DNA from: Oricola cellulosilytica
GTDB lineage: Bacteria > Pseudomonadota > Alphaproteobacteria > Rhizobiales > Rhizobiaceae
Direction of reading: 5' to 3'
Length of the DNA: 64,000 bases
Assembly (NCBI RefSeq): GCF_019966575.1
Contig: NZ_JAINFK010000001.1
Location: 633,626-697,625, forward strand
The notes below the pieces were generated by a model. It saw only the letters and a list, made by a program, of their open reading frames with translations. It did not search any database and was not told the DNA's origin. Both the position numbers and the translations under genes were made by a program. Below, piece by piece: positions 18,594 through 51,835 of this stretch. Numbering within the stretch: the stretch's first letter is position 1; each line of letters begins with the position of its first letter.

Positions 18594-18789
18594 CAATCGC
18601 TCCCATCGGTTCTGCAAAGGAAAATCCGGCGGCGCGCCAAAGGTTCCTTCGCGGCCGTTCGGCACGGCCGGCCTTCGGGCGCTGTGAAAAAAAGCGGGTG
18701 CCATTTTTGGCCGAAATGGGAATAATGCCTGAGCCAAGATACCGAAGCCGACACAAGGCGAAAGAAGACGAGGCGACAGACCAATTGCG

Positions 18790-19173
18790 ATGACGGACAC
18801 TTCGCCCCAGAAACTGCGCATTCTTGTCGTCGAGGACGACGCCCTAATACGGTTGACGACAGTCGACATGCTACTCGATCTGGAGCACGAGACCTTCGAG
18901 GCTGCCACTGGCGCCGACGCTCTTTCGATCCTGGAGGAAAAGGACATGGACCTGCTCATCACCGATGTTGGCCTGAGCGAACTGTCCGGCGTCGACGTTG
19001 CGCTCGCTGCTGTTCGCCGCAATCCGGAAATGGCGGTAATCTTCGCGACCGGACACAGTTCCGTCGACGGGCAAAAGGAACATGATGAGCTGCGTGGCGC
19101 GGTGCTTCTCCCGAAACCGTTCGACATGGATGCACTGGCCGCGGCGATCGTCCAGTCGACGGGTGCCGGCTAG
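18790..19173 (+). CDS. Single-domain response regulator
   Basis: 127 residues forming one receiver domain. ILVVEDDAL at about 11-19 gives the acidic pocket, the phosphoacceptor is Asp59 in LLITDVGLS, the switch Thr is in FATGHS, and Lys lies in LLPKPF. There is no output domain, so it acts by protein contact or as a phosphate sink. It stands 64 bases before a hybrid histidine kinase on the same strand and is most likely its partner. Confidence 0.92.
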   Translation: MTDTSPQKLRILVVEDDALIRLTTVDMLLDLEHETFEAATGADALSILEEKDMDLLITDVGLSELSGVDVALAAVRRNPEMAVIFATGHSSVDGQKEHDELRGAVLLPKPFDMDALAAAIVQSTGAG

Positions 19174-19237
19174 GCATGCGCGATGAGTAAAACGCCATTC
19201 CGGTCAGCGAGGCAGAAGGGTCGGTCGCTCCGGGGCA

Positions 19238-21820
19238 GTGCGGAGGATAGGCGACTTGCCTGATCCGGACTTCCTGGCAGGCGGTGGGCAAATGGGGGCG
19301 CTGATGCGGTCCCGTGACTGGTCGGTAACGACGCTCGGCCCCCCCGAAGAATGGCCGCAAGCCCTGCGCACCGCCGTCCGGATTCTGCTCAACACCAAAC
19401 ACCCGATGTACATCTTCTGGGGTCCGGCCCATGCCTGCCTCTACAACGATGCCTACAGCCTCTCGATAGGGCCGGAACGCCACCCCTGCTCGCTTGGGGA
19501 ACCAGGCCGCGAGGTCTGGGACGAGATCTGGGACATCATCGGCCCGCAGATCGACCAGGTCATGAGCGGCGGCGGCGCCACATGGCACGAGAATGCGCTC
19601 GTCCCAATCACGCGAAACGGCCGCCGGGAAGACGTCTACTGGACGTACAGTTACGGGCCAATCGACGACGAAGAGTCCGACACCGGCATCGGCGGCGTAC
19701 TCGTCGTCTGTTCCGAGACCACGGATGCGGTAATGGCCAACGCCCGCCAGGCGTTCTGGCTCGAACTGGGCGAACGGCTGAGAGAAATCTGCGATCCCCG
19801 CGAAATCATGATGACCGCGTCCGAAATGCTCGGCAGGCATTTGAAGGTCGGACGTTGCGGATATGGCGAGGTGGAGGACAACGGTGCATTCGCAACCATC
19901 GCCCGCGACTGGACGGACGGCGAAATGCCGAGCATCGAGGGGCGTTTGCGGCTCGACGATTTCGGCCCGGCAATAATCCGGGATCTGCGCAGCGGTCAAA
20001 CAATCGTACTCGACGATCCGATGGAGGACGAGCGCACGCGCGATGTCATTGCCGCCTTCACGGCTGCAGGGGGCATGCGAGCGGGAATTTCGGTGCCGCT
20101 GATCAAGCAGGGGCGTTTCGTCGCGGTTTTCTTCGTCAACCAGACCTTGCCGCGGCGATGGACCGATAACGACTTGCTGCTGGTGCGCGGCGTGGCAGAG
20201 AGAACATGGGCAGCCGTCGAGCGGGCGCGCGCCGAGAAGGCCCAGCGTGACGCGGAGGCGGAACTGAAGGCGCTGACCCAGACACTGGAACGCCAGGTCG
20301 CCGAGCGCACAGCCGAGTTGGAGGAAAAGGAAGCCCGGCTGAGAACCATCTTCGAGACAAGCTACCAGTACCAGGGGGTACTCGACCTCGAGGGCCGGGT
20401 GCTCGATGCCAATGCCAGTTCCCTTGAGGGTATCGGCGCGAAATTGCGCGATGTGGCCGGCAAGCGCCTGTGGAACACGCCATGGTTTACCGGAACACCG
20501 GGCATGCCGGAGAACGTGGGCCAGGTTTTTTTCAAGGTCGTCCAAGGCGAGACATTCCGCAAAGAGATGCGCGTGAACCTGCCGAATGGCGGGTGGCGAT
20601 GGTTCGATTTCGCGATGCGCGCAGTCCGCGACGAAAGTGGCGAGGTCATCGCCGTCGTGCCGGAAGCGGTGGAGACCACGGAGCGCCACCAGGCAGAGGA
20701 CGCACTGCGCCAGGCGCAAAAGCTTGAGGCGATGGGCCAACTCACCGGCGGCGTGGCGCACGACTTCAACAACCTTCTGACACCCATCGTCGCGACGCTT
20801 GACGGTCTGCGCCGGCGTCAGGTTGTGGCGGAGCGCGATCAGCGGCTGATCCATGCCGCACTGCAGGCCGCCGACCGCGCCAAGATTCTCGTGCAGCGGC
20901 TGTTGGCCTTTGCGCGGCGCCAACCGCTGAAACCGCAACCGGTCGATGTCGTGCGTCTGGTCACCGAAATGGCGGCGCTCGTGAACAGCACGACCGGGCC
21001 GAAAATCAACGTGGTCGTCGAGGCCGGAGACGGCCTGGATGCGGCGATCGCCGACCAGAACCAGCTGGAGATGGCGATCCTCAATCTCGCCGTAAACGCC
21101 CGCGACGCCATGGCCGATGGCGGAACGCTGCGCATCTCGGTCTCGCAAAGGGAGGTAAGCGCGGAAGACAGCGCAGTCGCGATGCTGGAGCCCGGCAGCT
21201 ATATATTGCTGGAGGTTGCCGACACCGGGGAGGGGATGAGTGCCGAAACGCTGGCGCATGCAATCGAGCCGTTCTTCTCGACCAAGGGGGTCGGCAAGGG
21301 AACCGGACTCGGTCTTTCGATGGTGCACGGCCTTGCCTCCCAGCTCGGTGGAGCGCTGACGCTCGAGAGCGAGGCCGGCAAGGGAACGACGGCACGGTTG
21401 TGGCTGCCGGCGAGCAGGGAAAGACCGGCGGGACGTAAATCCGTTGCGGTGGAGGCGACAGCAAACGGCGTGGGCTTGGTCCTGCTGGTCGACGACGAGG
21501 CCTCGGTGCGCGAGAGCACAGCGGAAATGCTGACCGAACTCGGATATATCGTGACCGAGGCCCGGTCTGGCGAGGAGGCCAAGGCGCTCGTCGACAAGGG
21601 GTTGCACCCCGACCTCTTGATCACCGACCACCTGATGCCCGGCATGACCGGTTCGGAACTCGCCAGGGCGGTGCGCGAGAAGATGCCGGGAACGAAGGTG
21701 CTGATCATTTCCGGCTATGCCGAGAACACTGCGCACGGCCCCGATTTTCCATGGCTCGACAAGCCGTTCCGGCAGGAGGAACTTGCGAGAAGGCTCGCAG
21801 AAATCGATGCCGATGGTTGA
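19238..21820 (+). CDS. Hybrid sensor histidine kinase (PAS-GAF-PAS-HisKA-HATPase-REC)
   Basis: Up to 860 residues. A PAS-like region at about 20-160 contains DWSVTTLGPPEEWPQALRTA, which is frequent in this kinase class. It is followed by GAF (about 165-325), a coiled linker (330-370), PAS (365-480), a HisKA box with His508 in GGVAHDFNNLLTP, an ATPase domain with GTGLGLSMVHG, and a receiver with Asp797 in LLITDHLMPG. No membrane segment is present, so it is a cytoplasmic sensor. The start is uncertain: GTG at 19238, TTG at 19256 (best placed for GGAGG) or ATG at 19292. A long open frame on the opposite strand is a composition artefact. Confidence 0.93.
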   Translation: MRRIGDLPDPDFLAGGGQMGALMRSRDWSVTTLGPPEEWPQALRTAVRILLNTKHPMYIFWGPAHACLYNDAYSLSIGPERHPCSLGEPGREVWDEIWDIIGPQIDQVMSGGGATWHENALVPITRNGRREDVYWTYSYGPIDDEESDTGIGGVLVVCSETTDAVMANARQAFWLELGERLREICDPREIMMTASEMLGRHLKVGRCGYGEVEDNGAFATIARDWTDGEMPSIEGRLRLDDFGPAIIRDLRSGQTIVLDDPMEDERTRDVIAAFTAAGGMRAGISVPLIKQGRFVAVFFVNQTLPRRWTDNDLLLVRGVAERTWAAVERARAEKAQRDAEAELKALTQTLERQVAERTAELEEKEARLRTIFETSYQYQGVLDLEGRVLDANASSLEGIGAKLRDVAGKRLWNTPWFTGTPGMPENVGQVFFKVVQGETFRKEMRVNLPNGGWRWFDFAMRAVRDESGEVIAVVPEAVETTERHQAEDALRQAQKLEAMGQLTGGVAHDFNNLLTPIVATLDGLRRRQVVAERDQRLIHAALQAADRAKILVQRLLAFARRQPLKPQPVDVVRLVTEMAALVNSTTGPKINVVVEAGDGLDAAIADQNQLEMAILNLAVNARDAMADGGTLRISVSQREVSAEDSAVAMLEPGSYILLEVADTGEGMSAETLAHAIEPFFSTKGVGKGTGLGLSMVHGLASQLGGALTLESEAGKGTTARLWLPASRERPAGRKSVAVEATANGVGLVLLVDDEASVRESTAEMLTELGYIVTEARSGEEAKALVDKGLHPDLLITDHLMPGMTGSELARAVREKMPGTKVLIISGYAENTAHGPDFPWLDKPFRQEELARRLAEIDADG

Positions 21821-32301: not shown

Positions 32302-33192
32302 ATGCCCAACCGGAGCGACGGCAAGGGGCTGGAAATCATCGAGGACGATTTCGACGCGGTCGTGAACGACTGGATCGAGATGCAGAAGGATGAGGGTATC
32401 CAGCGGACTGACCTTTTCTCGGAAACAGAGATACATGAGCAGACCCGCAGTTTCCTGCGGGCCTTCATCCACGGAATTCGAGCGGGCGGCTCGGTCACCG
32501 ATTTCAGTCTCGAGCACAAATCCTGGCAGGAATTGCGTGACGTTCTCGACGACATCACTCGCGAGCGAATCGGCCGCGGCGTGCCTGCCGGCGAGATGGC
32601 GGGTTTCGTGCTTGCACTGAAGGAACCGGTCTTCAACCGGCTGCGCGAGCATTACGGCAAGAAGGTCGATACGATGCTCGACGAGATCGTCAAGTTCGGC
32701 AGCGTGGTCGACGAGCTCGCACTGTTCACCAACCAGCAGTTCATCATCGAACGCGAGCAGGTCATCGAACGCCAGCGCGACGAGATGCTGGAACTGTCGA
32801 CCCCGGTCGTAGAGTTGTGGGAAAGGGTTCTGACCATCCCGCTGATCGGAACGCTGGATTCCGTTCGCGCGCAGGAAGTCATGGAAAATCTGCTGGAGGC
32901 AATCGTCAGACACAGGGCCGAAGTGGCCATCGTGGACATTACCGGCGTGCAAACTGTCGACACACAGGTCGCCCAACACCTGCTGCGGACCGCCGCGGCG
33001 GTACGGCTGATGGGCGCCGAGTGCATCATTTCCGGAGTGAGCCCGAAGATCGCCCAGACAATCGTCCAGCTCGGCGTCGATGTCGGCGACGTGACCACGC
33101 GTTCGTCGATCCGCACTGCGCTGGTCCATGCCTTTGAAACGGTCGGTTACACGATCACGCGGCGCGGCGGCGAGGCCGAACAGTTTGTCTAA
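32302..33192 (+). CDS. rsbR: Stressosome scaffold protein RsbR
   Basis: 296 residues. An N-terminal non-haem globin-like helical region (about 10-150, no named ligand motif) is followed by a linker helix and a C-terminal STAS domain from about 165. In Bacillus RsbRA two Thr are phosphorylated by RsbT, 34 residues apart. Here the matching places are Ser187 in IGTLDSVRAQ and Thr221 in QTVDTQVAQH, also 34 apart, so the first is Ser. The segment ISGVSPKIAQTIVQLGVDV is typical. It forms the stressosome shell with RsbS and senses through the N-domain. First gene of a five-gene operon; the stop overlaps rsbS. Confidence 0.93.
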   Translation: MPNRSDGKGLEIIEDDFDAVVNDWIEMQKDEGIQRTDLFSETEIHEQTRSFLRAFIHGIRAGGSVTDFSLEHKSWQELRDVLDDITRERIGRGVPAGEMAGFVLALKEPVFNRLREHYGKKVDTMLDEIVKFGSVVDELALFTNQQFIIEREQVIERQRDEMLELSTPVVELWERVLTIPLIGTLDSVRAQEVMENLLEAIVRHRAEVAIVDITGVQTVDTQVAQHLLRTAAAVRLMGAECIISGVSPKIAQTIVQLGVDVGDVTTRSSIRTALVHAFETVGYTITRRGGEAEQFV

Positions 33193-33547
33193 CGCGGTCG
33201 GCATCTACGCCGTCGAGGACGTGCTGCTGGTCTCCATCAAGGACGACATCACGGATAGCGACGTCATCGAGCTGCAGGACGGGCTGTCCGAGGAGGTCGT
33301 GCGAACGGGCGCGCGGGGCGTGGTGATCGACATCAGCGCTCTCGATATCGTCGACACGTTCGTCGGCCGCATCTTCGCCCAGCTTTCCGGCGTGGCCAAA
33401 CTGCTCGATGCAGAAACCTACATCGTCGGCATGCGCCCCGCGGTCGCCATGACCCTGGTGGAGCTCGGCATGACATTGCCGGAGAGCAACATGGCCCTGT
33501 CCGTCAGCCAGGCGCTGCGGCGCATCAGGGCTAACCGCACGAGATGA
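33185..33547 (+). CDS. rsbS: Stressosome protein RsbS (STAS domain)
   Basis: 120 residues from a TTG at 33185, which overlaps the rsbR stop and gives the normal RsbS length (about 120); an ATG at 33128 would add 19 unrelated residues. A single STAS domain: AVGIYAVEDVLLVSIKDDI, GVVIDISALDIVDTFVGR, YIVGMRPAVAMTLVELGM. In Bacillus the RsbT target is Ser59 in IVDSFVTR; here the same place is Thr58 in IVDTFVGR. That still permits phosphorylation but is unusual. RsbS holds RsbT in the stressosome until phosphorylated. It shares ATGA with rsbT. Confidence 0.93.
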   Translation: MSNAVGIYAVEDVLLVSIKDDITDSDVIELQDGLSEEVVRTGARGVVIDISALDIVDTFVGRIFAQLSGVAKLLDAETYIVGMRPAVAMTLVELGMTLPESNMALSVSQALRRIRANRTR

Positions 33548-33951
33548 CCGTTCCCGGCGGCCGCCTGGTCGCGACAGTAAAGCTTTCCACCGACCGCGAT
33601 GTGGCGCGCGCGCGACAGGCCGTGTCCCGTGCGTTCGATGACCTCAAGGCCCGCGCCATCCGGAAGACGCGATTCGTCACGGCGGTCAGCGAAATAGCGC
33701 GGAATGCCGTGACCCATGGGCGCGGCGGCGAAATGTCCATATTCGTGCACGACCGCCCGCCGGGAGTATCGGTGATATGCAGCGACAACGGGCCGGGGAT
33801 CGAGAACACGGAGCAGGCAATGTCGGACGGCTTCAGCACGGGACGCAGCATGGGCAAGGGGCTTGGAGGCGCGCGGCGGCTGGCCGACACATTCGAGCTG
33901 GTTTCATCACCTGGAAGCGGCACGGTTGTACGCATGTCGGGGACGGCATGA
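33544..33951 (+). CDS. rsbT: Stressosome switch kinase RsbT
   Basis: 135 residues; a GHKL-type serine/threonine kinase of the RsbT/RsbW family. N box VSEIARNAVTHGRGG, G1 DNGPGI and G2 GRSMGKGLGGARRLADTF are all intact. By family it phosphorylates RsbR and RsbS, is then released, and activates a downstream partner (RsbU in Bacillus). Here no RsbU follows; the next genes carry the candidate partners. Start and stop overlap its neighbours by four bases each (ATGA), indicating coupled translation. Confidence 0.94.
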   Translation: MTVPGGRLVATVKLSTDRDVARARQAVSRAFDDLKARAIRKTRFVTAVSEIARNAVTHGRGGEMSIFVHDRPPGVSVICSDNGPGIENTEQAMSDGFSTGRSMGKGLGGARRLADTFELVSSPGSGTVVRMSGTA

Positions 33952-34958
33952 GCGAGTTCGTCAGGATCACCGACCAGAGTTCCGCCGCGGACGCACGCCG
34001 GCGATTGCGGCGAGTTGCCGCCGCCGAGGACTTCGACAGCGACACCATCGAGCGCGCCGCCATCGTCGCGACCGAGGCCGCCACCAACATCGTCCGGTAC
34101 GCCGGACGCGGCAACATCCTCATCGACACGATGCCTCTTTTCGGCACGAAGAAGCTCGTCATCATCGCCATGGACAAGGGCTCTGGCATCGCAAAGCTGG
34201 AGCGAATGATGCGGGACGGCGAATCGACGGGTGGCGGGAGCGGAACCGGCCTCGGCGCGATGCAGCGCCTGTCGGATCGCTTCGACATTCACACGGAGCC
34301 CGGGGCCGGGACGGTCGTAGCCTGCGAATTCGGCCCATCCGCCTCCGACGGCAAGACCCGGCGGTTCGACGCCGCCGGACTGCGGCTGAACCACCCCGGC
34401 GAGAGCGAATGCGGTGATGCCTGGCTGCTGCGGACCACGGGACGGAGCAGCCAGTTTTTCCTGTGCGACGGTCTCGGCCACGGTCCCCGCGCCGCTGAAG
34501 CCGCCAATCGTGCGATCGAAGGTCTGAAGAACCATGGCGGAGCGCCGGTGGAGACGATACTCGACGACCTCTCACACACAATGCGGCCGACGCGCGGAGC
34601 CGTCGCGGCGCTATGCCAGGTGGAGGGGGAATCGCCGACGATGACCTATGGGGGTATCGGCAACATATCCACACTGCACCTTTCGAACGGAGCCATACGC
34701 CGGCTGGCGTCGCGGGACGGACGGCTGGGCGCGGTCGAGCGGCGGGCGATGGTGGAGACGCTCGACATCCAGCCGGGCGACACGGTGGTGATGCACACCG
34801 ACGGGATCTCCACGCTGCGCGGCTTCGAGAGCCGGACCGGCCTGCTGCGCCGCTCCGCCCTGACTATCGCCGGCGTGATCTTGCGGGATCATCTGCGCGG
34901 GCGCGACGATGCAGGGATCGTGGTCGTAAAGATCCGGAAAGACCAGGACCAACGATGA
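33948..34958 (+). CDS. Anti-sigma-type ATPase domain fused to SpoIIE/RsbX-type phosphatase
   Basis: 336 residues. Residues about 1-130 are a second GHKL kinase-like domain: N box ATEAATNIVRYAGRG, G1 DKGSGI, G2 GSGTGLGAMQRLSDRF. Residues about 145-332 are a PP2C/SpoIIE phosphatase with metal-site residues Asp157 (ECGDAW), Asp174 (CDGLGHG), Asp285 (HTDGIS) and Asp320/Asp321 (RDDAGIVVVK). The phosphatase half is closest in form to RsbX, which dephosphorylates RsbR and RsbS and resets the stressosome. A kinase-like and a phosphatase domain in one chain is notable. ATGA overlaps on both sides. Confidence 0.9.
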   Translation: MSEFVRITDQSSAADARRRLRRVAAAEDFDSDTIERAAIVATEAATNIVRYAGRGNILIDTMPLFGTKKLVIIAMDKGSGIAKLERMMRDGESTGGGSGTGLGAMQRLSDRFDIHTEPGAGTVVACEFGPSASDGKTRRFDAAGLRLNHPGESECGDAWLLRTTGRSSQFFLCDGLGHGPRAAEAANRAIEGLKNHGGAPVETILDDLSHTMRPTRGAVAALCQVEGESPTMTYGGIGNISTLHLSNGAIRRLASRDGRLGAVERRAMVETLDIQPGDTVVMHTDGISTLRGFESRTGLLRRSALTIAGVILRDHLRGRDDAGIVVVKIRKDQDQR

Positions 34959-36103
34959 AACGGCTGGCATCCGTGCGGGTAACACGCGAACAGGACATCG
35001 TGCGAGTACGCCAGATCGGCCAACTGGTCGCGCGGACGACCGGCTTCAGCGCGTTTGCCGAAACACGGGTGGTCACAGCCTGGCTCGAACTGGCGCGCAA
35101 CATCCTGCAGCACGGAGGGGGCGGCCGCATCAACTTCGCCCTCGATGCGCACCGCAGGAAGATCGCCGCGATCGGTACCGCCATCGACGAGGGCCCGGGG
35201 ATCGAGCGCGTTGACGATCTGCTGCAGGGCCGGCGCCGCCCGGCGGACAAGGGGGGTCTCGGTCTGGGCCTGCGCGGCGTGCACCGCATGGCCGACCGTT
35301 TCGACATCAGGACCGGGCCTGAAGGAACACGCGTGGAAGCAGGCTTCCTGTCGGAACGGCCGGAAGGCGAATTGCTCGACACCGTGAAGGAGGCGGCCGA
35401 TGCGATCGAAGCGCTGGACCAGATCGATCCCGCAGCGGTGCTGGCGCAGCAGAACGACGACCTCATGCGGGCGCTGAGCGAACGCGACCTGCTGATTGCC
35501 GAGATTCATCATCGCACGCGCAACAACCTGGCGCTCGTCTCCAGTCTGGTGCGGCTCAGCCGCTCCGGCGCGAAGCAGGAGGAAACGCGCGCGGCGCTCA
35601 AGGAACTCGAAGGCCGGATCAACGCGATCATACAGGTGCACCAGCAATTGCAGCATGCCGAAACCAGCGGCGAGATGCAGCTGGTTCCCCTGCTCGAGGA
35701 AGTCGTAGCCCAGGCACGCCGGGCATTCAGCGCCCCGAACCTGCTCATCTCGACCGAGGTTACAGGAGACCAGGTGACTGTCGGAAGCGGCGCCGCCGTG
35801 GCTCTCGGCCTGATCGTCGGAGAACTGATCACCAACGCGATGAAGCATGGCTTCGCCGGACGTTCCGAGGGACGCATTACCGTTTCGCTCGACTCATCCC
35901 AGGACGGCTACCTGACGCTGGTAACGGCCGATGACGGCAACGGCCTTCCCGCCGGCCAGGACCGCCCCGAACGGTCGTCGTCTCTCGGCTGGCGGATGAT
36001 CCGCACAATGGCGGACAAATATGGCGGCCAGATTACCACCGACGGCACAAAGGGTCTGCGGGTGACCATCCGCTTCGACAGGGATCTCCTGACCGAGACC
36101 TGA
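34955..36103 (+). CDS. RsbT-like ATPase domain fused to HisKA_2 histidine kinase
   Basis: 382 residues. The N-terminal domain (about 5-135) is an RsbT/RsbW-like GHKL fold: LELARNILQHGGGG, DEGPGI, GGLGLGLRGVHRMADRF. A linker at about 140-180 leads to a HisKA_2 dimer/phosphoacceptor region with the His pair 185/186 in LLIAEIHHRTRNNLALVSSL, then a HATPase with GELITNAMKHGF and SLGWRMIRTMADKYGG. There is no receiver or membrane segment. HisKA_2/HWE kinases are the class that phosphorylates PhyR in alphaproteobacteria, so this may be the stressosome output (inference). Last gene of the operon. Confidence 0.9.
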   Translation: MKRLASVRVTREQDIVRVRQIGQLVARTTGFSAFAETRVVTAWLELARNILQHGGGGRINFALDAHRRKIAAIGTAIDEGPGIERVDDLLQGRRRPADKGGLGLGLRGVHRMADRFDIRTGPEGTRVEAGFLSERPEGELLDTVKEAADAIEALDQIDPAAVLAQQNDDLMRALSERDLLIAEIHHRTRNNLALVSSLVRLSRSGAKQEETRAALKELEGRINAIIQVHQQLQHAETSGEMQLVPLLEEVVAQARRAFSAPNLLISTEVTGDQVTVGSGAAVALGLIVGELITNAMKHGFAGRSEGRITVSLDSSQDGYLTLVTADDGNGLPAGQDRPERSSSLGWRMIRTMADKYGGQITTDGTKGLRVTIRFDRDLLTET

Positions 36104-39821: not shown

Positions 39822-41180
39822 CTAAACGGCCAGCGGCTGACCGGTTTCTCCCATCTCCTCCAGTTCGAGCTGAGACCGGGCGAGGAGACGGAAACGGCCG
39901 CGGCCGGACTTCTCGAGACGGATGCAGGCGTCGCGCTCGTCCAGGCGCTTGCGCAGGAGGATCAGCCTGGCATCAAGGTTTTCCGCGTGCGCCGGCAACC
40001 GCAACGAAGGATCGAGCCGCAATTCGCGGTTGGAGAATTCCGTTCTGCCGGTCTGAACATGTTCAGAAACGAGACGCCAGAGGATCGCTCCGGCCACACC
40101 CTTGATCAGGTAGTCGTGGTCGAGAAAAATGCTTTGGTCGAGCCGGTGATATCGGATCGTAACCGTATCGGCCGACGGAAGCGATTCCTGCACGAGCGGT
40201 TCCCCCACGGCCTCCTCATCCTCCCGCAGGAGCGTTAACAGCACGGCGAGATGGCTGGCGACAATGCGCAACGCATCTTCCTCCTCGTAGCAGAAAGCCA
40301 TGATTTCCTCTGACTCGGCGAAAAGAATGCCGAGGATTTGTCCGCCCAGCGAGATCGGCACCGCGATCTGGCTTTTGGGCGCATGCAGACCGGGAAACGG
40401 GATTTCGACCGGCGTTATGGCGATGATCCCGGCGCGCCGGGCCGAATCCATCAGCGTCGCTCCGTAACGGTACTCCGTTGTCATGTGGCCGATGCGTATC
40501 GGGGTGTTCTCGCGCGCCGCCACCCCGATGACGCCTTCGCCGAAGGCGACCTCCGAGCCGATGCCGGACGTCTCGTAACCGTGGGAGGCGACCGTGTAGA
40601 GGCGCCGGGCATGCGACTCCACCATCAGCACCATCGAATAGGCGATACCGAAGTTGCGATCGAGACAATGCAGGGCCCGGTCGAGCAGCTCGTCAAGATC
40701 GGACATGACGGCGAGTTCCGTACAAGTTTGCTGCGCCGCAGAAAGAAGTGAGCGGTTGTTGGGCGGCGGGTGAAGTACCGGCTCCGAAACCGTCTCGATC
40801 GACAAGACGCGGAACAGGTCGGAACCGAGCAGCCGGAAGACGCCTTCCAGACCCGAGTGGGAGGCGATGCCGGCCAGCTTCGCCTTCATCGTTTCGAACA
40901 GCGGGCCGCTTGTCAGCGTCTCCCGGTACTCGAGCTGCAGACGGTGCATCGCCAGCGTGGTGCCGTCGGTGACGAGGACCGACGCGAGCCGGTTCACCAT
41001 GAGGTTGCGGCGTGTCTTGTTGAAAAACTGGTATGAAAGAGCAACCTGCTGGCGCTCGACATAATGGACCTGCGAAATCATCGAGACGTTCGGAGTGCCG
41101 TCACCATCCACGGTGGCGAGAACCGCCGGAATCACCCCTTCCAGCGCACCCCGCAGGGCTTCCAGACACAGATCGTTCAT
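39822..41180 (-). CDS. PNPOx-like, GAF and probable winged-helix fusion protein
   Basis: 452 residues. Residues about 10-150 are a PNPOx-like split barrel (AVLATVDGDGTPNVSMISQVHYVE, NKTRRNLMVNRLASVLV). Residues about 165-320 are a GAF domain (GEGVIGVAARENTPIRIGHM, VPISLGGQILGILFAESE). The last 110 residues (YLIKGVAGAILWRLVSEHVQ, NLDARLILLRKRLDER, KSGRGRFRLL) resemble an OmpR-type winged helix. This would be a flavin or haem sensor with DNA-binding output (inference). It overlaps the preceding PNPOx gene by ATGA. Confidence 0.78.
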   Translation of the reverse strand: MNDLCLEALRGALEGVIPAVLATVDGDGTPNVSMISQVHYVERQQVALSYQFFNKTRRNLMVNRLASVLVTDGTTLAMHRLQLEYRETLTSGPLFETMKAKLAGIASHSGLEGVFRLLGSDLFRVLSIETVSEPVLHPPPNNRSLLSAAQQTCTELAVMSDLDELLDRALHCLDRNFGIAYSMVLMVESHARRLYTVASHGYETSGIGSEVAFGEGVIGVAARENTPIRIGHMTTEYRYGATLMDSARRAGIIAITPVEIPFPGLHAPKSQIAVPISLGGQILGILFAESEEIMAFCYEEEDALRIVASHLAVLLTLLREDEEAVGEPLVQESLPSADTVTIRYHRLDQSIFLDHDYLIKGVAGAILWRLVSEHVQTGRTEFSNRELRLDPSLRLPAHAENLDARLILLRKRLDERDACIRLEKSGRGRFRLLARSQLELEEMGETGQPLAV

Positions 41181-49722: not shown

Positions 49723-51125
49723 GGCGTTCCCTCTTCAGTTTGCGGCAGCCGGAGGCCGATCTCAAAACCGTCATCTTCCGTATCGCGCATGTGGAGCCGC
49801 CCACCGTGCGAAACGGCGACCTCGTGCGCGATGGCCAGACCGAGGCCGGCGCCCTTGCCTCTTGCCGGCCGCTTGCCCCGGAAGCGCGTTCCCGCCGATC
49901 CGCGCTCGGCCGGCGGGATGCCTTTTCCCCTGTCGGCGACGGCGATCGACGCCTCGCCGGGGTGGGCGCCGACACGGATGACGATCGGTGGGCTGCCGTG
50001 CTCATAGGCGTTGTTGACGAGGTTCTTCACGGCTTCGCGCAGGCTGAACCGGTCGCCGGTGACGATCACCGGCTCTTCCGGAAGATCGAGCACCGGCGCC
50101 GCGCGGCTCTCCTCGGCCAGACTCCGCGTCTCCTGTTCGGCCTCCATTGCGACACGCCTCAAATCGACGCTCTCGCGCGGTTCGGCGTCGGTGCGGTGGG
50201 TGATCATTGCATGGCTGAGCAACTGGTCGGCCAGGCGGCTGACCGCGACCGAACGATCGAGGATGCGGCGGTTGATACGGCGAAGGCGATCCGGCGAAGT
50301 TTCACCCGCGGCAAGCTGCGCCTGGGCGCGGATCGCTGTGATCGGCGTGCGCAGCTGGTGCGCCGCATCGGCGACGAAGGATTGGACGCTGCCAATCCGA
50401 CGGTCGAGACGGCGGGTGAAGCGGTTGATTGCGTCGACCACAGTCTCGATCTCGCGCGGCGTCTCGATGTCGAATGGCGAGAGGTCGTTGGGATCACGCG
50501 ACAGCAGTGCGCGCTCGACGCGGGTCAGCGGCGCCAGAGCGTAGCGTACCGCGACATAAGCGAGCAGCACAATCGCCAGCGCCGCCGCGCCGACGAGGAT
50601 CGCCGCCTTGGTCGCGATGTCGCGTGCCAGCGCCATGCGTTCGTGGATGGTATGGGCGACGACCACGCTGACCTGTCCGCTGAGGGTGCGCTCGGCCACC
50701 GGGCGGGTGGTCATGACGGCACGAACCGTCTCGCCGGAATATTCTATCTCGTAGACCATCGCATCCGCCTCGCGCCCGGACGGCGGCGGCAGATCAGGAT
50801 ACCCTGTCAGGGTTTCACCGTCGGTGCCGATCACGCGATAGAAGATCCGGTCATTGCGCGCGAGTGAAAGCAGCTCGAAGGCCGACGAGGGCAAATCGAC
50901 CACCAGCTCGCCATCGATCACAGCGACACGTTCGGCGATCTGCAGCGACGCGCCGGTCAGGAGCCGGTCATAGGCCTCGTTTGCCGCCTGAAGGCCGTAA
51001 TTCCAAGCGGAATAGAGCGCTGCCGTCACCGCCAGCAGCAGGATCAGCGAAACCGCGATGGTCAACCGCAGCGCGAGCGAGGGACGCCGGGCGGGGCGGG
51101 ATACGTGGGCGACAGTTTCAGCCAT
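49719..51125 (-). CDS. tctE: Sensor histidine kinase TctE
   Basis: 468 residues. Membrane helices at about 20-42 and 170-195 flank a periplasmic 2CSK_N sensor domain (NEAYDRLLTGASLQIAERVAV). HAMP region, then HisKA with SFVADAAHQLRTPITAIRAQ and HATPase with VKNLVNNAYEHG and ARGKGAGLGLAIAHEVAVSHGG. It senses tricarboxylates in related systems. Overlaps tctD by eight bases. Confidence 0.94.
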   Translation of the reverse strand: MAETVAHVSRPARRPSLALRLTIAVSLILLLAVTAALYSAWNYGLQAANEAYDRLLTGASLQIAERVAVIDGELVVDLPSSAFELLSLARNDRIFYRVIGTDGETLTGYPDLPPPSGREADAMVYEIEYSGETVRAVMTTRPVAERTLSGQVSVVVAHTIHERMALARDIATKAAILVGAAALAIVLLAYVAVRYALAPLTRVERALLSRDPNDLSPFDIETPREIETVVDAINRFTRRLDRRIGSVQSFVADAAHQLRTPITAIRAQAQLAAGETSPDRLRRINRRILDRSVAVSRLADQLLSHAMITHRTDAEPRESVDLRRVAMEAEQETRSLAEESRAAPVLDLPEEPVIVTGDRFSLREAVKNLVNNAYEHGSPPIVIRVGAHPGEASIAVADRGKGIPPAERGSAGTRFRGKRPARGKGAGLGLAIAHEVAVSHGGRLHMRDTEDDGFEIGLRLPQTEEGTP

Positions 51126-51801
51126 CGGCGGCCTGACGGGTGGCGAAGGCCTGATAGCCGAGGCCCCGCAAGGTACGGATTTCCAGCGAGGCGGACGGGA
51201 TCTTCTTGCGCAGCCGCGCGACGTACAACTCGATTGCGTTGAGGCCCGCCTCCTCCTCCAGACCGAACAGGCGAGAATGCAGCTCCTCCTTGGCGATGAC
51301 GCGGCCGCGCGAGGCGAGCAGGATCTCGAGAAGCGCCTGTTCGCGCCGTGTCAGTTCGCAGACCTCGCCGCGCACGGTGACCTGCCTCGTCGCCGTGTTG
51401 AAGGAGATGTCCCCCGCTTCCAGCACGGCGTCCGTCTCGCCATGGCGGCGGCGTGACACGGCGCGGAGGCGCGCTTCCAGTTCGCGGATGTCGAACGGCT
51501 TGACGAGGTAATCGTCCGCGCCGGCATCGAGCGCATCAACCCGGTCGTCGACACCGAGGCGGGCGGTCAGCATGATCACGGCCAGCGTCTCTCCGCGGAC
51601 ACGAATCTCGCGCAGCAGGTCGAAGCCGCTGCCGTCGGGCAGGTTGATGTCGAGCACCATCAGGTCGAAAGGCTGCACGGCCAGGAACTGGCGCGCGTCG
51701 GCGAGCGTGCCCGCGCGGTCGCAGGCGTGGCCGAGCCGCGACAGGCTTTCGGCGATCGCGTCGGCAACATCCTCGGCATCCTCGACAATGAGCAGCCGCA
51801 C
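51118..51801 (-). CDS. tctD: Response regulator TctD (OmpR family)
   Basis: 227 residues. A receiver with Asp51 in DLMVLDINLPDGS and Lys in YLVKPFD, then an OmpR-type winged helix (LTRREQALLEILLASRGRVIAKEEL...NAIELYVARLRKKI). It controls the divergent tctCBA operon in known systems. A tandem direct repeat between tctD and tctC is a good binding site. Confidence 0.94.
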   Translation of the reverse strand: MRLLIVEDAEDVADAIAESLSRLGHACDRAGTLADARQFLAVQPFDLMVLDINLPDGSGFDLLREIRVRGETLAVIMLTARLGVDDRVDALDAGADDYLVKPFDIRELEARLRAVSRRRHGETDAVLEAGDISFNTATRQVTVRGEVCELTRREQALLEILLASRGRVIAKEELHSRLFGLEEEAGLNAIELYVARLRKKIPSASLEIRTLRGLGYQAFATRQAADG

Positions 51802-51816
51802 TCTTTTCCTCCCGAA

Positions 51817-51835
51817 TGACAGCTAGGTGACAGCT
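51817..51835. promoter_or_regulatory. Tandem direct repeat, candidate TctD site
   Basis: TGACAGCT occurs at 51817-51824 and 51828-51835, an 11-base period, one helical turn. OmpR-family regulators bind such direct repeats as head-to-tail dimers. It lies 65-85 bases before tctC and just before tctD, fitting control of tctCBA and autoregulation. Confidence 0.65.

Follow-up and report, generated by a model that had tools for sequence, protein, structure and literature searches.

A stretch of 64,000 nucleotides (nt) of the Oricola cellulosilytica genome, hereafter the window, carries a five-gene operon on the forward strand (32302-36103; all positions follow the numbering of the whole window) in which homologues of the stressosome proteins RsbR, RsbS and RsbT are followed by a phosphatase (X) and a histidine kinase (K), both bearing an RsbT-like domain of their own. 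The operon may constitute a stressosome module whose output is a histidine kinase encoded within it, signalling in trans to PhyR and/or a receiver of the FATGUY type; the probability of this reading is estimated at about one half. Its parts differ in strength. Coupling of the stressosome to K is highly probable, whereas PhyR and/or a FATGUY-type regulator as the receiver is put forward with slightly less than even confidence, and the RsbT-like coupling domain is better supported as a new point than the link to PhyR.

The domain composition of the five products defines the system (domain calls within the window come from a Pfam scan, frames from the list of open reading frames). RsbR (32302-33192, 296 amino acids, aa) combines an RsbRD_N sensor-type N-terminal domain (E=2e-18) with a STAS domain (E=2e-14) and aligns to solved RsbR chains. 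RsbS (33185-33547, 120 aa) is a single STAS domain (Pfam E=6e-10) that, among solved structures, matches RsbS chains best (E 8e-21 to 1e-19); its most likely start is the TTG at 33185, while the ATG at 33128, which opens the longest frame, is also possible. RsbT (33544-33951, 135 aa) is a stand-alone RsbT-like GHKL kinase (HATPase_c E=2e-11, HATPase_c_2 E=4e-11). X (33948-34958) joins an RsbT-like GHKL domain (33978-34319, HATPase_c_2 E=3e-12) to a SpoIIE/PP2C domain (34452-34856, E=9e-11); with 3zt9 SpoIIE and 3w40 RsbX as its best solved relatives, it is presumed to be a feedback phosphatase of the RsbX type. K (34955-36103) consists of an RsbT-like GHKL domain (approximately residues 1-135), a helical linker, a HisKA_2 domain (183-256) and a HATPase domain (281-376), HATPase_c_2 being matched in two stretches (E=1e-21), HisKA_2 at E=3e-16 and HWE_HK at E=1e-9. 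Pfam detects no receiver domain on K, nor an RsbU_N domain at E<=0.01. All five genes lie on the plus strand and each overlaps the next, by 8 nt between rsbR and rsbS and by 4 nt at the S/T, T/X and X/K junctions. A sequence-only reading of the window had described RsbR, RsbS and RsbT as intact and overlap-coupled, followed by a kinase-phosphatase fusion and an RsbT-like/HisKA_2 kinase, and the frames, domains and overlaps agree with it. The RsbRD_N domain of RsbR (32302-33192) also gives weak adenosine deaminase matches (Pfam E=0.00095; TIGR01430 E=1.1e-4), probably an artefact of helical repeats.

The same arrangement recurs outside the window. Mapping with tblastn yielded 25 K loci (23 genomes and two named plasmids, the window included), and a divergent 26th is found in genome G244 (L224), which has the same operon with a more divergent K. 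Order and orientation are R-S-T-X-K at all 25 mapped loci, a conservation conditional on K, through which the loci were located, and drawn from a partly redundant set (the K cores of L110 and L113 are identical, and the plasmid copy of Phaeobacter inhibens, L053, hardly differs from L116). The overlap of T and X measures 4 nt in 22 of the 25. The profile search finds full-length K in at least 11 genomes of the host's family (297 searched, the host counted) and in at least 12 of the order taken as Rhodobacterales because of its Phaeobacter member (341 searched, the central genome G480 counted). This second group shares the class of the host, which supports an alphaproteobacterial host. R-S-T-X precedes K in all 23 of these (11 + 12, K at profile E<=1e-55). 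Since the five-gene order is present at every mapped locus, chance or a frame artefact can be rejected, and the earlier view of the five genes as one unit holds. The proposed search for the same order elsewhere likewise succeeds, as it recurs in the 25 loci and G244, scattered among alphaproteobacteria. At L124 (G894) a gap of 121 nt, as called, separates T from an apparently shortened X, and this K diverges more than any other in the Rhodobacterales group, possibly a sign of decay.

Residues presumed to be essential are retained almost without exception. Ser187 and Thr221 of RsbR, as well as Thr58 of RsbS, the presumed phosphorylation sites by alignment to solved chains, are found at 25/25 loci; the RsbS residue is a threonine, in contrast to the serine of the solved RsbS chains aligned with it (6jhk, 6qcm). 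In T, X and K alike, the RsbT-like domain keeps the key residues of the N, G1 and G2 boxes (25/25), and X keeps Asp157, Asp174, Asp285, Asp320 and Asp321 (25/25), presumably its metal-site residues. In K, the H box with the presumed phosphoacceptor His186 and the key ATP-site residues are equally invariant, except for one G-box glycine seen in 24 of 25 loci and replaced by a gap in the other. As these catalytic residues are kept across the 25 loci, the histidine kinase and each of the three RsbT-type domains look active. The R, S and T genes (an RsbR with an N-domain and STAS, RsbS and RsbT adjacent or overlapping at the 25 loci, and phosphorylatable Ser/Thr sites) are taken to encode a stressosome, for which complex formation is predicted. 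The AlphaFold2 model of K (8-row alignment; mean pLDDT 78.7, pTM 0.46) places two GHKL domains at either side of helices 137-154 and 159-205, a long helical stretch that runs into the phosphoacceptor helix; pLDDT is mostly 53-68 in the linker and phosphoacceptor region. Over the core, the nearest solved structures are EL346 and the Brucella LOV-HK.

Support for K as the stressosome output comes from operons with other kinases. Seven further R-S-T-X operons end in a hybrid protein with RsbT-like, HisKA, HATPase and receiver domains (L054 from Sphingomonas aliaeris, L057 from plasmid pMP1 of Deinococcus radiodurans, L125, L126, L127, L226 and L227). They share with the window operon the R-S-T-X genes, the RsbT-like domain on X and an output RsbT-like domain of the same clade as that of K; they differ in having a HisKA core with one or more receivers in the same protein (7/7), whereas K has a HisKA_2 core and no receiver. 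None is conserved beside K either, so K is expected to signal in trans. In a tree of RsbT-like domains (53 rows), 12 domains of K (11 from the 25 loci, one from G244) and the seven hybrid domains form one clade beside RsbT (support 94/90, just below the star level of the tree tool itself). Within it, the domains of the hybrids and of the G244 K are interspersed among the other K domains, which make up no separate group; the RsbT-like domains of X form a separate clade (100/100), far from that of K and the hybrids. The simplest reading, leaving aside the direction and number of exchanges, is that the RsbT-like domain represents the constant part coupling kinases to the stressosome, with the kinase core exchanged. 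The operons suggest one way in which Gram-negative stressosomes may transmit signals, an output kinase that bears a relative of RsbT, seen from alphaproteobacteria to a Deinococcus plasmid. The expectation that the last protein carries the output is supported: K is the likely output, of HisKA_2/HWE class and with no regulator in cis. Three operons (Variovorax L056, L229 and L230) end in HisKA kinases on which no RsbT-like domain is detected; L225 and L228, which stop at contig ends, and L231 are left out of this tally. At L230 (5695-6731, G432) the RsbT-like and SpoIIE halves of X are two separate frames, and at L227 (6083-9207, minus strand, G423) the RsbT-like-HisKA-REC-REC kinase is followed by a REC-HisKA_2 kinase, so that both kinase classes are adjacent.

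A tentative mechanism can be outlined, with the assembly of the complex, the way in which K is activated and the choice of receiver all inferred. RsbR and RsbS would form a scaffold that holds RsbT-family domains; under stress, RsbT would phosphorylate both and then depart. The RsbT-like domain of K would provide the coupling, being either bound to the RsbR/RsbS scaffold and released together with RsbT or paired with freed RsbT, and the helical linker would relay the change to the HisKA_2 core, leading to autophosphorylation on His186. A receiver whose gene lies elsewhere, most likely PhyR and/or a FATGUY single-domain regulator, would then take over the phosphoryl group, and the signal would reach NepR/EcfG. 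X, for which its RsbT-like domain may serve as an anchor, would dephosphorylate and reset the scaffold. The linker step has a parallel in Bacillus, where RsbU becomes active once freed RsbT brings order to a coiled-coil linker; this logic has also been proposed for RsbU_N histidine kinases in such operons (PMC12143880).

Several observations point to PhyR or a FATGUY regulator as the receiver. K has a HisKA_2/HWE core with an intact H box, the class from which PhyR is fed, and the host possesses the pathway: its genome encodes phyR, nepR and ecfG together with an HWE kinase of their own at one locus, as well as a FATGUY-like regulator. According to PMC5964349, most HWE/HisKA2 kinases of Sphingomonas melonis feed into PhyR; of the Caulobacter HWE/HisKA2 kinases, five were active in vitro, and four of these phosphorylated MrrA, a regulator of the FATGUY type. 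The co-occurrence called for by the sequence-only reading is also found, each of the 24 carriers checked having NepR or PhyR. NepR is matched in 23 of 23 carriers, compared with 34 of 44 presumed non-carriers from the same two families (one-sided Fisher p=0.010, kinship uncorrected; the non-carriers are a non-random choice among the listed genomes, 51 of which were scanned and seven, from other families, left out). The 24th carrier, G244, has no NepR match, but a full-length PhyR is found in sampled stretches of its genome. G244 is hence withdrawn as a counterexample, and the NepR model evidently can miss members; an ECF sigma match in this genome does not lie beside phyR and is not counted as EcfG. 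Among the seven HisKA_2/HWE kinases scanned in the host genome (an eighth, L014, falls outside the scan), K is the sole one with PhyK as its best NCBIfam match. This match is rejected as decisive evidence because other HisKA_2 kinases across genomes score higher on the PhyK model.

Other results weigh against PhyR. The flanks of the 25 loci (approximately 2 kb to 28 kb per side) contain no match to phyR or ecfG. An exact EcfG-type promoter (GGAAC-N16-18-CGTT, a consensus that the control loci support) is found near rsbR at 0 of 25 loci, compared with 16 of 21 control loci of the general stress response (about 650 nt, both strands; shuffled means 0.44 for operon loci and 0.36 for controls). A looser test (300 nt, one strand, at most one mismatch) finds it at 5 of 25 loci, with a shuffled mean of 1.9. 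On the PhyK model, K scores 88.5 bits against a cut-off of 750 and is outscored by other HisKA_2 kinases. Trees of HisKA_2 cores do not settle the position of K relative to phyR-adjacent kinases: K forms one clade (90/87) in the first tree, from which cores below 185 residues or 50 bits and duplicates were left out, and support falls to 10 once G244 is added and the rows are thinned by seven long or odd ones and 14 of the 24 K rows. The phosphoacceptor helix itself is altered. Thr188 is found at 25/25 loci, the residue in most PhyK-type and regulator-adjacent kinases being valine, and alanine takes the place of the glutamine that these kinases have after Asn-Asn-Leu; the divergent K of G244 keeps the usual HHRVKNNLQ. 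These residues hint at a different choice of receiver. The NepR comparison is weak, since it gives p=0.31 within the host's family and p=0.023 in the other family, the presumed non-carriers may include missed carriers (the K searches missed G244 and G354), and NepR itself can be missed, as in G244. The host genome has 50 receiver matches, so other partners are possible, and in PMC5964349 neither PhyK nor LovK was active as an autokinase in vitro. The link from the stressosome to PhyR (EcfG) proposed by the sequence-only reading is a plausible hypothesis, neither borne out in the form given nor contradicted: the kinase class, the PhyR-NepR-EcfG locus of the host and the NepR counts speak for it, while neighbourhood, promoter and tree give it no backing.

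Some of this evidence would suit a different receiver of K, an orphan response regulator that does not belong to the PhyR pathway; K would still be the stressosome output. This alternative is conceivable, though held with some doubt. Besides the 50 receiver matches, the K-specific helix residues and the missing EcfG promoter and phyR neighbourhood at the 25 loci, it can draw on the hybrid kinases of other stressosome operons, which bring receivers of their own. It is opposed by the tendency of S. melonis and Caulobacter HisKA_2/HWE kinases to feed mostly PhyR or FATGUY receivers (PMC5964349), and the neighbourhood of the operon shows no other conserved regulator. In genus g49 (L111, L112, L129), a receiver/kinase pair upstream of the operon was considered and set aside, as it looks like a separate system; in G053 it comprises a 127-aa receiver and a 593-aa kinase, judged by reading to be of HisKA type, on the other strand.

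It is rather unlikely that the operon is nothing more than a common rsbRSTX module of known type with a two-component output, although its closest published relatives are indeed of this kind. PMC9237108 describes four-gene rsbRSTX modules with globin-type RsbR and eleven downstream architectures, HisKA/REC among them, in several proteobacterial classes including Alphaproteobacteria, with Ruegeria named. The window operon resembles the Vibrio-type modules in that RsbR, RsbS, RsbT and a phosphatase directly precede a histidine kinase gene without a sigma-B cascade; as in rsbRSTX, the PP2C phosphatase directly follows rsbT, X overlapping T by 4 nt. In those globin-type modules, however, the same paper gives X as a single-domain phosphatase and most outputs as lacking a detected coupling domain, whereas X has an N-terminal RsbT-like domain here. 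For Vibrio, it reports output proteins without detected RsbU_N and no positive result for an RsbT-kinase interaction. The operon of Vibrio sp. THAF191c illustrates the difference: it has a protoglobin-type RsbR, a single-domain X, a PAS-HisKA-REC-REC-Hpt kinase with no detected RsbT-like domain and a REC-HD partner, compared with RsbRD_N on RsbR, RsbT-like domains on X and K, HisKA_2 and no receiver in the window. An RsbT-like/HisKA_2 kinase without receiver is not found in the open-access literature text covered, but a figure of PMC9237108, outside that scope, may show it. Novelty is accordingly reduced: stressosomes with HisKA/REC outputs are in print (PMC9237108), and what appears new, within the passages covered, is the receiver-less RsbT-like/HisKA_2 variant.

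Further published work concerns the stressosome of Vibrio (PMC4976288, PMC10014275) and the rsb homologues of Rhodobacter, where phyR was disrupted separately (PMC3999984). Within the scope of titles, abstract beginnings and selected passages, no link between stressosome and PhyR and no shared clade of the RsbT-like domains of K and hybrid kinases are described; open-access text joining Phaeobacter with the stressosome, or RsbT with HisKA_2, was likewise not found. Two better-known systems frame the operon. It shares RsbR/RsbS/RsbT homologues and an RsbX-like phosphatase with the Bacillus/Listeria sigma-B pathway, from which it differs by lacking adjacent RsbU, RsbV, RsbW and SigB and by the threonine in RsbS. 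K shares the HisKA_2 phosphoacceptor and catalytic core with PhyK and LOV-HK kinases, but its input is an RsbT-like GHKL domain rather than PAS/LOV, phyR is not found adjacent and the residues after the phospho-histidine are altered. The idea that K is mainly a third RsbT-type kinase or a decoy, phosphorylating or titrating RsbR/RsbS with a secondary or autoregulatory HisKA_2 core, fits the key ATP-site residues of its RsbT-like domain and the place of that domain beside RsbT in the tree, yet is very improbable given the equally conserved HisKA_2 H box and catalytic HATPase, unexpected for a dispensable core.

A wider version of the preferred reading, in which the stressosome feeds PhyR-NepR-EcfG through a kinase with its own RsbT-like coupling domain, would make the operon a mobile five-gene cassette with an exchangeable core, HisKA_2 without receiver where the PhyR hub exists and HisKA with receiver elsewhere; it is suggested tentatively. 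If true, it would unite two stress systems that are mostly investigated in separate phyla. The presence of the operon in the laboratory strain Phaeobacter inhibens DSM 17395 (PGA1_RS18475-18495), on the 262-kb plasmid pPGA1_262, makes both the coupling and the PhyR question directly testable.

The window operon itself was probably acquired horizontally, as its copy is Rhodobacterales-like, none is matched in the five genus mates sampled, and plasmid-borne copies exist elsewhere. Its proteins match Rhodobacterales copies at 52-62% (R) and 40-54% (K), compared with 47-51% and 33-37% with those of its own family, and in the kinase-core tree its K is sister (100/96) to that of G971 (taken as Limimaricola pyoseonensis), within the Rhodobacterales group. 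Records covering 80% or more of K number 60 in the plasmid collection; among these, the 20 listed are all from Phaeobacter, and an Alloyangia plasmid also bears K. The class sample contains K in 2 of 385 genomes (E<=1e-60), G244 and G354 being missed there and picked up by the RsbR search; the phylum sample (398 genomes) gives partial matches only, to the core or the N-domain, besides the host and G480. All K counts are lower bounds, four to six candidates per genome having been scored in the class, family, order and phylum samples.

The surroundings of the operon differ between copies. In the window, a GFA-domain gene and a LysR-type gene (both Pfam) and a gyrB-like frame, named by reading alone, lie upstream, and a gene for an AMP-binding enzyme (Pfam) lies downstream on the opposite strand. 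According to frames and Pfam, none of RsbU, RsbV, RsbW and SigB adjoins the operon, which leads to rejection of a sigma-B-type output, and neither Pfam nor the flank search finds a response regulator next to it. The nearest receiver domains in the window (approximately 18733-21817 and 51121-51822; Pfam receiver search of the host genome and a home-made receiver profile) are more than 10 kb away, and the sequence-only reading was correct on both counts. The pPGA1_262 copy (L053, record positions 79498-95295) has paaZ and a flavoprotein gene about 5 kb away. This 262-kb Phaeobacter plasmid carries tropodithietic-acid genes. In G244 (L224), the operon sits between an ABC transporter/P-II gene group and permease genes of branched-chain amino-acid type (one DUF3382), suggesting a nitrogen-uptake setting. 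Elsewhere in the window (39822-41180, minus strand), a 452-aa protein combines a PNPOx-like N-terminal part, just under the Pfam cut-off, with a GAF domain and an unassigned C-terminal part.

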